Shown: one piece after another, positions 3,346 through 21,671 of the stretch
Numbering within the stretch: the first letter of the stretch is position 1
Layout of the letters: each line of letters begins with the position of its first letter
Source of the DNA: Nitrospirota bacterium
Lineage (GTDB): Bacteria > JACPQY01
Reading direction: 5' to 3'
NCBI GenBank assembly: GCA_016190245.1
Contig: JACPQY010000029.1
Coordinates: 1 to 21,671 of the forward strand
Length of the DNA stretch: 21,671 bases
Notes under the pieces: model-generated
Told to the model about the DNA's origin: nothing
Seen by the model: only the letters and a program-made list of their open reading frames with translations
Database searches by the model: none
Made by a program: the position numbers and the translations under genes

Positions 3346-4329
3346 TCAGAGCGTGGGCGGGCCGAGCGCGAACTTCTCGGACCAAGGGACCAGCCGAACC
3401 ATCTCCGTCTGAAGCGCTGAGTCCAGCACTCTCACGGGGATATCTCTCGCCTCGTCCCAATACACCTCGTCGTGGGACCTCTTGTGGAACGCGGCCATGC
3501 GTAGGAGACGCCTCTCGCCGACCTTTCGGTCGTAGCGCAGCACGAGAAACATGTCCGGCATCTCCACCACCTCGGGCACAACCTCCCCCGGGCGAACGCC
3601 GCTGAGGGTTTCGGAAAGAAACCGTTTTGCCCACTCCGCGTCTGAGCGCTGCGCATCGCCTGAAGGCAACCCGGCCGCCGCCGCCACGTTCGGTGGCACG
3701 CCGGAGAGGGCCGATTGGGGGGCGGGACCTCCCGGGCGGGATTCATGCACGGGGAGCCAACCTTCTGAAGTGACATCCAACCCGGTCGCCTCCCTCCCAA
3801 GGGCCTCCTTCGCGCGCCGGTCGAACTCGCGTGGCCTCTCCCGCACGCTCCTCATCCACGCCTCGGCCTCCGCGCGCCGCCCACCCTGGATCTCGGGCGA
3901 CCAGCGCACAACATCGTAGGGCAGAACCCGGCCGACGTACACGGGCAGAATGTAGTTCGCGAGGTAGGCCTTCCGCCGACCCCCGAACACGGCCTTGATC
4001 CTTGCGAGCACCTCGGGCGCGAGCGTTTCGCGGTCGATCCGTCCGGCCTCCGTTTCCAGCACTTCCGTCGTAACGGCCTTGCCGTGTTTCTTCATGATCG
4101 AGGCCCCCACGCAGGCCTTGAGAAGGTGGCTGAGGACGATGCCCGGCTCCACCACCCGGCCCTCCTCGGTGATCTTGAGCACCTCCTGCCGATCCTGGAG
4201 ATCCTTCTGCGTGATTTCGCACTCGCCGGCCCGGGCCGCGAGTGGCGGACTCTCCGGCTTGCGCGAACAGGCCCCACATAGCACGAGGACGGCCGCAACC
4301 CACGGCACACCGGTCTTCACACCCCGCAT
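3346..4329 (-). CDS. SurA/PpiC-like lipoprotein, putative periplasmic folding factor
   Basis: A 327-residue protein. The frame continues upstream, but the start is placed at ATG 4329 because the protein then opens with a typical lipoprotein signal (MRGVKTG, a hydrophobic stretch, then CGAC with Cys21 as the lipidated residue). The upstream residues are low-complexity and cross the palindrome at 4455-4490. Residues 36-125 look like the helical N-terminal chaperone region of SurA-type proteins (EITQKDLQDRQEVL, then a charged helical segment). Around 240-270, LSGVRPGEVVPEVVEMPDMFLVLRYDRK resembles the end of a parvulin domain, where 'PGEV..PV....G.H....' is usual. The canonical parvulin active-site block is not evident, so isomerase activity is doubtful and a holdase or chaperone role is the better guess. 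It is transcribed divergently from the metallo-hydrolase gene and convergently with the SBBP gene. Confidence 0.72.
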   Translation of the reverse strand: MRGVKTGVPWVAAVLVLCGACSRKPESPPLAARAGECEITQKDLQDRQEVLKITEEGRVVEPGIVLSHLLKACVGASIMKKHGKAVTTEVLETEAGRIDRETLAPEVLARIKAVFGGRRKAYLANYILPVYVGRVLPYDVVRWSPEIQGGRRAEAEAWMRSVRERPREFDRRAKEALGREATGLDVTSEGWLPVHESRPGGPAPQSALSGVPPNVAAAAGLPSGDAQRSDAEWAKRFLSETLSGVRPGEVVPEVVEMPDMFLVLRYDRKVGERRLLRMAAFHKRSHDEVYWDEARDIPVRVLDSALQTEMVRLVPWSEKFALGPPTL

Positions 4330-4454
4330 GGTAGTCCACACAACGACCCTCTTCCAGCGCGGCGGCGTCAGGCGTTCAACCACCGCCCCGAATCGCACGG
4401 CAAGGCGAGACACGTCCGCAGACGGCACAACGAAGCCTGACCCCCTTTCTTCTC

Positions 4455-4490
4455 TTACTGTACAGAAGACGGCCGTCTTCTGTACAGTAA
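4455..4490. promoter_or_regulatory. Perfect 36-bp palindrome, candidate operator
   Basis: The left arm TTACTGTACAGAAGACGG is followed immediately by its exact reverse complement. Each arm also contains the 8-bp self-palindrome CTGTACAG, at 4458-4465 and 4480-4487. Their centres are 22 bp apart, about two helical turns, so both would face the same side of the DNA. The element lies 125 bp upstream of the SurA-like gene start and 162 bp upstream of the metallo-hydrolase start. No T tract follows on either strand, which argues against a terminator. I do not recognise the regulator. A copy of a dispersed palindromic repeat is the main alternative. Confidence 0.6.
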
Positions 4491-4652: not shown

Positions 4653-5549
4653 GTGTACGGCATCTCATTGTTGATGTGGCTGCCTGCGGTGACGATCGCC
4701 CAGGCGGGGGAAGTCCCGTGCGTGGAGGTTTCCGCTCTGCATACCGGCGGGATGATTCAGCGCGAGTACGCGGCGATGGAAGGCGGGCGGTGGGGGGAGA
4801 AGGTGGACATGACGATGTCCGCCATCGCCTTCCGCGAGCCCGGCAGCAGCGGCCTCTGGCTGTTTGACGCGGGGCTTGCGGCGCAGGTTGAGGAGCAGCG
4901 CGAGGCGGCGCCCTGGTGGTTCCGCTTGGCGCTCAGAGACGTGCGGCCCGGCCGCCCTGCCATCGAGCAGCTCGGCCCGGCCGCCCAGAACGTCAGCGGC
5001 ATCGTTCTGTCGCACGCCCACTGGGACCACTTGAGCGGCGTGGTGGATTTCCCCCATGTTCCAGTCTACGCGCCCGAGCGGGAACTCACGTGGGCACGGG
5101 AGCAGAAGGCGGGCCGGCACGGCATCCTGCCTGCCCTCGTGGACTCCGCAGCCGCGCGGTTCCGGGCGATGGCCGCCGAGCCGAGGGCCGACATTGACCC
5201 CTTCGGTGAGGCCGGCGACTTCTTCGGGAACGGCTCCGTCCTCTTCATCCCTGTCCACGGCCACACTCCCGGCAGCCTCCTCATGCTTGCCTCCGCCTGC
5301 GACGGCCGCCGCTTCCTTTTCATTGGCGACGAGGCGTGGATCCGGCGGGCGGTCCAGGAGGCCCGTAAGCGGCCCTGGTTCGTTCGGTGGGTAGCGGATG
5401 TCGAGGCCGAGGTCATTCCTCGCGAGCTGACCCTCGTGCGCCAGCTCGCTTCGCGGCTCGAGGCCGTCGTGATCCCCGCTCACGACCGCCGTGCCCATGA
5501 CGCGGTGCCCGAATACCCCTCGTTCGCCGGCGCTCCCCGTTCCGATTGA
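4653..5549 (+). CDS. Exported metallo-beta-lactamase-fold hydrolase
   Basis: A 298-residue protein with the complete metal-binding set of the metallo-beta-lactamase superfamily: HAHWDH at 121-126 (His121, His123, Asp125, His126), HGHTPGS at 202-208 (His202), IGDE with Asp226, and a late AHD with His277. This predicts a binuclear zinc hydrolase. The N-terminus (MYGISLLMWLPAVTIAQAGE) looks like a short signal peptide cleaved after AQA, so the enzyme is probably periplasmic. The start is GTG 4653; an in-frame ATG at 4674 would shorten the signal. The spacing and the HGHTPGS motif resemble the lactonase/glyoxalase-II-like branch, but the substrate cannot be told from sequence. It is divergent from the SurA-like lipoprotein gene, and the next lipoprotein gene starts 33 bp downstream from its own promoter. 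Confidence 0.85.
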   Translation: MYGISLLMWLPAVTIAQAGEVPCVEVSALHTGGMIQREYAAMEGGRWGEKVDMTMSAIAFREPGSSGLWLFDAGLAAQVEEQREAAPWWFRLALRDVRPGRPAIEQLGPAAQNVSGIVLSHAHWDHLSGVVDFPHVPVYAPERELTWAREQKAGRHGILPALVDSAAARFRAMAAEPRADIDPFGEAGDFFGNGSVLFIPVHGHTPGSLLMLASACDGRRFLFIGDEAWIRRAVQEARKRPWFVRWVADVEAEVIPRELTLVRQLASRLEAVVIPAHDRRAHDAVPEYPSFAGAPRSD

Positions 5550-21578: not shown

Positions 21579-21666
21579 GCCCTGCCATCTCCGCCGCGGC
21601 GGACAGGGCCACACCTGGGCAGGAAGCCCTGGTGCCACGAGCGGAAGGCAGCCCACGAAGGGCTGC
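21579..21666. repeat. Cluster of three further hairpins beside the REP doublet
   Basis: GCCCTG (21579-21584) pairs with CAGGGC (21604-21609) around the 14-bp palindrome TCCGCCGCGGCGGA (21590-21603). CACCTGGGC (21612-21620) pairs with GCCCTGGTG (21626-21634), with one mismatch. GCAGCCC (21648-21654) pairs exactly with GGGCTGC (21660-21666). None is followed by a T run. Confidence 0.45.
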
Positions 21667-21671
21667 GATGA

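Follow-up and report, generated by a model that had tools for sequence, protein, structure and literature searches.

A perfect palindrome in the shared upstream region of two divergent genes raises the question whether it is the operator of these genes or a sequence which merely happens to lie between them. The palindrome considered here, TTACTGTACAGAAGACGGCCGTCTTCTGTACAGTAA, occupies positions 4455–4490 of the window, a term which stands for the whole stretch of 21,671 nucleotides analysed and which corresponds to the complete contig C14 of an 86-contig, 3.29-Mb draft genome (G000) of about 85% completeness. As the first-pass annotation had described, the sequence is its own reverse complement with neither a loop nor a mismatch. 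The symmetry ends at the very next base outward, and no other perfect palindrome in the window is as long as its 36 bp, the runner-up having 16 bp. The two CTGTACAG words which had been pointed out as its cores were located at 4458–4465 and 4480–4487, with the claimed distance of 22 bp from centre to centre. They are the only occurrences of this word in the window, where shuffled sequences lead one to expect 0.07 and none out of 100 shuffles reached two. To the left of the palindrome a lipoprotein-like gene is encoded on the minus strand (3346–4341, with an approximate start at 4332–4341), and to the right the gene of a secreted metallo-beta-lactamase-fold hydrolase on the plus strand (4653–5549; Pfam Lactamase_B, E 2.9e-13), which confirms the divergent setting. 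The first gene product had been called a SurA-like lipoprotein. Its lipoprotein-like character is retained, while SurA-like is a reading of the sequence only, the protein having matched no family in Pfam or NCBIfam. For the hydrolase the best NCBIfam matches were N-acyl homoserine lactonases (AttM, AidB), which scored far under the cut-off.

The whole genome was searched with the pattern CTGTACA-N4-ACGGCCGT-N4-TGTACAG, allowing up to three mismatches over the 22 fixed positions and using the reversed pattern as a control. This yielded 17 full copies with zero to two mismatches and none with exactly three, and the control pattern gave no match at all. An 18th copy is truncated by the end of contig C62, for which reason the interpretation of this place as an empty site was rejected. 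With the genome being incomplete the count is a lower bound, making the palindrome of the window one of at least 18 dispersed copies, which are spread over at least 13 contigs. The alternative that had been offered beside an operator, namely one copy of a dispersed palindrome, was thus borne out, and an operator local to the two envelope genes was rejected in view of the 17 dispersed copies. When half-sites alone were searched for, none were found in the genome beyond those of the full palindromes, barring overlapping echoes. The flanking sequence is common to the copies C24, C72, and C62, which therefore do not represent three independent insertions. The remaining copies have little in common outside a core of 34–36 bp.

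Two further observations concern repeated sequences in the same genome. Paralogous lipoprotein-like sequences with shared 3'-end flanks are located at L021:5054–6199, L027:139–359, the end of L044, and L043:1458–1656; the palindrome is present at the paralogs on C72, C24, and C62 and absent at the one on C6, the flank of which could not be aligned. A second dispersed repeat family, which is longer, more variable, and unrelated to the palindrome, occurs at 21605–21669 of the window and at L024:3285–3461, L025:2843–3019, L031:7990–8102, L032:8123–8211, and L023:6325–6423. This second family showed no match to the Y1 transposase loci checked.

In G001, the one other genome of the phylum compared, which belongs to the same family and another genus, no copy of the palindrome was found. 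Searches of further collections gave no exact match to TGTACA-N4-ACGGCCGT-N4-TGTACA among the genome contigs, no match to CTGTACA-N5-CGGCCG-N5-TGTACAG among the viral contigs, and nothing similar to the palindrome among plasmids and phages. G001 contains an ortholog of the lipoprotein gene with 50% identity and a different upstream neighbour, and no TGTACA was detected in the 9.7 kb examined at this locus. Conservation upstream of orthologous gene pairs, which had been proposed as a mark of an operator, is therefore not seen in this one relative.

Comparison of the copies allowed us to define the conserved unit. The 34 half-sites match TACTGTACA-N-W-R-R-M-CGG with rare deviations. In the window the left half-site, TACTGTACAGAAGACGG, extends from 4456 to 4472 on the plus strand, and the right one is the identical 17-mer inverted, from 4473 to 4489 on the minus strand. 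This unit reaches beyond the two CTGTACAG words and takes in the central ACGGCCGT (4469–4476), whose inner CGGCCG is intact in 16 of the 17 full copies, as well as the flanking TA on the left (4456–4457) and on the right (4488–4489). Across all 34 half-sites CTGTACA, the first seven bases of the outer box, is never altered, and a single deviation each occurs in the inner CGG, in the outer T, and in the outer A (33 of 34 conserved). Variation is almost limited to five positions per half-site and is restricted in kind there (W, R, R, M). The outer flank is mostly HTA on both sides and carries no conserved tetranucleotide tag; the flanking TA is possibly a target duplication or a part of the site itself. 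The two arms of the same site are alike in 15.2 of 18 positions as compared to 15.0 for shuffled halves (p 0.19). Recognition as a hairpin would require paired changes in the arms. As the arms vary independently, and at restricted positions only, recognition of the duplex half-sites by a symmetric protein would fit better than a hairpin, and from this pattern of variation the 36-mer is likely to be bound as duplex DNA by protein dimers.

For scoring the placement of the copies, genes were called by a simple codon-based method in the stretches examined, 88% of which came out as coding. Sixteen of the 17 copies fall into intergenic DNA, and an overlap of about 11 nt with a predicted start codon was seen for the remaining one. 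The 15 copies flanked on either side by a called gene, for which the orientation of the neighbours could be classified, comprise five in divergent, six in co-directional, and four in convergent settings. From intergenic length 25% divergent, 47% co-directional, and 27% convergent settings are expected, and the orientation classes hence match random intergenic placement. Twelve of the 17 copies precede some start codon by no more than about 300 bp, which leaves room for a regulatory role of a subset of them, and ten are found within about 140 bp downstream of a stop codon. Among the products of the neighbours are an acyl-CoA dehydrogenase, a nucleoside hydrolase, a glycosyl hydrolase, a TauE exporter, a FadL-type porin, a GGDEF-EAL regulator, an NAD(P)H-hydrate repair enzyme, and a radical SAM protein, and no common functional theme was found among the genes adjacent to the palindromes. 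The first-pass annotation had considered an operator of an undescribed regulon, to be recognised by copies confined to promoters. This proposal is weakened by the promoter-indifferent placement and the lack of a theme among the neighbours; several copies are unrelated to promoters, including the four between convergent genes.

How the copies came to be so similar is suggested by two lines of evidence. Each site carries about 55 bits of information, and about 18 bits suffice to single out 17 sites in this genome. Because of this excess, common descent by copying is likelier than a convergent origin of operators. The second line of evidence is the copy C79, which is situated inside the last spacer of a CRISPR array adjoining cas1, cas2, and cas4. 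Five intact spacers of this array have 35–38 nt, and the last one, measured up to a degenerate repeat, has 67–68 nt; the alignment score of the degenerate repeat was reached by 0.1% of shuffles (p 0.001). The last spacer is thus longer than the intact ones by about 30–32 bp, which corresponds to the 30-bp core alone or together with a duplicated TA, the boundary of the repeat at this single locus being uncertain by a base or two. The over-long spacer containing the palindrome suggests an insertion; an empty site of any of the copies was not found in a close relative. Together with the information argument, on which insertion likewise rests, it points to a palindrome which would be mobile. The array itself covers L022:4566–4968 and contains six repeats, the 37-bp repeat reading CTTTCAGAGGCTACCAAGATGCTTCCGAGAATGAAAG.

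A candidate partner of the palindromes is encoded on contig C10, where three copies surround a gene of 216 amino acids on the minus strand (L026 6065–6715). Copy C10A is positioned 32 bp past the stop codon of this gene, 6 bp separate the end of C10B from its start codon, and C10C is located about 200 bp upstream in the same divergent promoter region as C10B. C10A and C10C are 94% alike over 35 nt and have opposite orientation, and C10B, which precedes a regulator-like gene, may be a genuine operator. A DUF5618 gene (L026 7099–7515), which is divergent from the 216-amino acid gene, is immediately preceded by an inverted repeat with perfect arms of 18 bp and a loop of 3 nt (CGTTGACGCTGGGCGCAC cgc GTGCGCCCAGCGTCAACG; L026:7060–7098).

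PaaX_M is the Cas2-like central domain of PaaX, and the 216-amino acid protein clears the Pfam threshold for it with 27.2 bits versus 24. Matches to winged-helix and Cas2 models were obtained as well, both sub-threshold. The protein has a PaaX_M/Cas2-like C-terminal part and probably a winged-helix N-terminal part. The models for the N-terminal helix-turn-helix and the C-terminal domain of PaaX remained unmatched, PaaX_M alone having passed, and a signature of a transposase or an integrase is absent. In 386 genomes the search for homologs returned one match of 40 residues, and none were present in genome contigs, viral contigs, phages, or plasmids. An AlphaFold2 prediction from the single sequence gave no usable model (mean pLDDT 35). 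The other two PaaX_M matches in the genome are a longer PaaX-like protein of 336 amino acids and a protein with a ChrB-like sequence; both are encoded on contig C43, which has no copy of the palindrome. In G001 no PaaX_M match was found, just as no palindromes were found there. It is from its location and from this joint absence in one relative that we infer a link of the 216-amino acid protein to the palindromes.

A peculiar distribution of half-sites was noticed on the same contig. The rare inner half-site TAAGA is common to C10A and C10C, and the outer half-sites of these two copies are the two half-sites of C10a, another copy 96 kb off on C10. Joining the centres of C10A and C10C by excision of what lies between them would give the half-site combination of C10a. 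The exact arrangement, which was noticed post hoc, has a shuffle p of 0.004, and any triad of this kind is seen in 42% of shuffles; the pattern is taken as a lead only. It would fit a proposal, to which we give a small probability, that a Cas2-like/PaaX-like winged-helix protein and not a Y1 or DDE transposase recognises as well as spreads the 36-bp palindrome, the two forming a minimal mobile system: the arrangement looks as if an existing palindrome had received a one-gene element of about 925 bp in its centre.

The copies, their common half-site, and their intergenic, promoter-indifferent placement are direct observations on this genome. The reading built on them, that a small family of near-perfect 36-bp palindromes spread in the genome by copying into intergenic DNA and has the 216-amino acid protein as its partner, is given about an even chance of being correct. 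According to this reading the palindrome would have been copied into intergenic DNA within this genome, resulting in 17 full copies and a truncated one. A two-fold symmetric protein would recognise each copy as a duplex and contact both of its 17-bp half-sites, and this protein would most likely be the one encoded between the copies on C10. It would repress its own gene via C10B, and it could, more speculatively, spread the palindromes by itself or with a transposase acting together with it. If so, the copy in the window would sit as a passenger between the lipoprotein and the hydrolase gene and influence their expression as a side effect at most. At the very least, the case shows that a striking perfect palindrome is not necessarily the operator of the divergent genes between which it lies.

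Of the alternatives, a regulon survives best, although we consider it unlikely. Here the 216-amino acid protein would be a PaaX-like regulator, of which two dimers per 36-mer block promoters, its own and those of the window genes included. In its favour are C10B, ending 6 bp in front of the regulator gene, and C10C in the same divergent promoter region, the pattern of variation, which is typical of protein contacts, and the 12 of 17 copies within about 300 bp of a downstream start codon. Against a regulon it counts that four of the 15 classifiable copies are situated between convergent genes, one of them in a CRISPR array, that the overall placement equals the random intergenic expectation, and that the neighbours are devoid of a functional theme; moreover, the information in the sites is roughly threefold what recognition requires, and the lipoprotein ortholog of G001 has no palindrome upstream.

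More doubtful is a function in chromosome organisation. SlmA, MatP, and Noc are regulator-like DNA-binding proteins with dispersed sites not tied to promoters, and in a similar manner the 216-amino acid protein might bind the palindromes for positioning or protecting regions of the chromosome. Such a function would agree with a placement indifferent to gene orientation, with conserved half-sites, and with a low copy number over at least 13 contigs. Unlike the core chromosome systems, however, the palindrome is missing from G001, the other member of the family, and the information excess as well as the CRISPR copy suggest insertional spread instead.

About equally little credit is given to the possibility that the palindromes are ordinary miniatures of a known enzyme, either REPs of one of the eight Y1 (RAYT-like) transposases or TA-flanked miniatures of the IS630/Tc1 type. 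The enzymes would be at hand, as the genome has eight Y1_Tnp matches together with one intact-looking and one partial DDE_3 match, and TA is found beside almost every half-site. Yet the motif occurs in none of five Y1 loci searched, each of the eight Y1 genes is free of copies within 30 kb on its contig, the GTAG/CGTC tag of REPs is absent, the arms lack co-variation, and the DDE_3 locus shows no terminal repeat resembling the palindrome. The eight Y1_Tnp genes are distributed over contigs C13, C22, C28, C68, C74, C79, and C81, and two loci that were checked have flanking inverted repeats of their own. Very improbable, finally, is a bidirectional transcription terminator or RNA hairpin, since in spite of ten of 17 copies being within about 140 bp past a stop codon and of the ability of a perfect palindrome to fold, five copies are placed between divergent genes, no T-run follows the palindrome, neither a terminator-like site was called at 4455–4490 nor an Rfam family found at threshold, and complementarity of the arms is not kept beyond the half-site consensus.

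Among known systems two classes of short dispersed repeats invite comparison. RAYT transposases are thought to spread REPs, and RUP is an example of a TA-flanked bacterial MITE. REPs are intergenic palindromes of 20–40 bp which bear GTAG or CGTC tags, and inverted REPs lie on both sides of RAYT genes (PMC3733652, PMC2817692). The family described here resembles this system as a short palindrome which is dispersed in intergenic DNA, is restricted to one genome, and has a candidate partner gene between the inverted copies C10A and C10C. It differs by its only 18 copies, which are perfect or near-perfect, loop-free, and devoid of a GTAG or CGTC tag, by arms which do not co-vary, complementary changes being absent (p 0.19), and by a candidate partner which is a PaaX_M protein and not a Y1 (PF01797) transposase. 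With MITEs the palindrome shares its non-coding, inverted-repeat, intergenic, and TA-flanked nature, and the length of the CRISPR copy would be compatible with 30 bp and a TA duplication. Its 36 bp, however, are below the 70–300 bp given for MITEs (PMC3733652), its arms enclose no interior, and a parent IS sharing its ends was not found. A search for an autonomous element with palindrome-like terminal repeats found none, as the ends of the DDE_3 locus differ and half-sites occur only in full palindromes.

With PaaX the candidate partner has in common that it scores over the PaaX_M threshold and has a copy of the palindrome at its own promoter region, but it has 216 amino acids as compared to 336 of the longer PaaX-like protein of this genome, matches no N-terminal PaaX model, and would have sites beyond promoters. 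What distinguishes the palindrome from the sites of SlmA, MatP, and Noc is its information content of about 55 bits per site, its absence in a relative of the same family, and its occurrence in a CRISPR spacer. The family would work most like a dispersed palindrome of the REP type, yet it can be filed neither as a REP nor as a MITE. During CRISPR adaptation Cas2 has a part in the integration of DNA, and a Cas2-like protein tied to the spreading of a palindrome would therefore bear on how such domains were recruited. If the inference holds, the palindromes would constitute a dispersed family outside the definitions of both REP/RAYT systems and MITEs, having a candidate partner with a Cas2-like domain.
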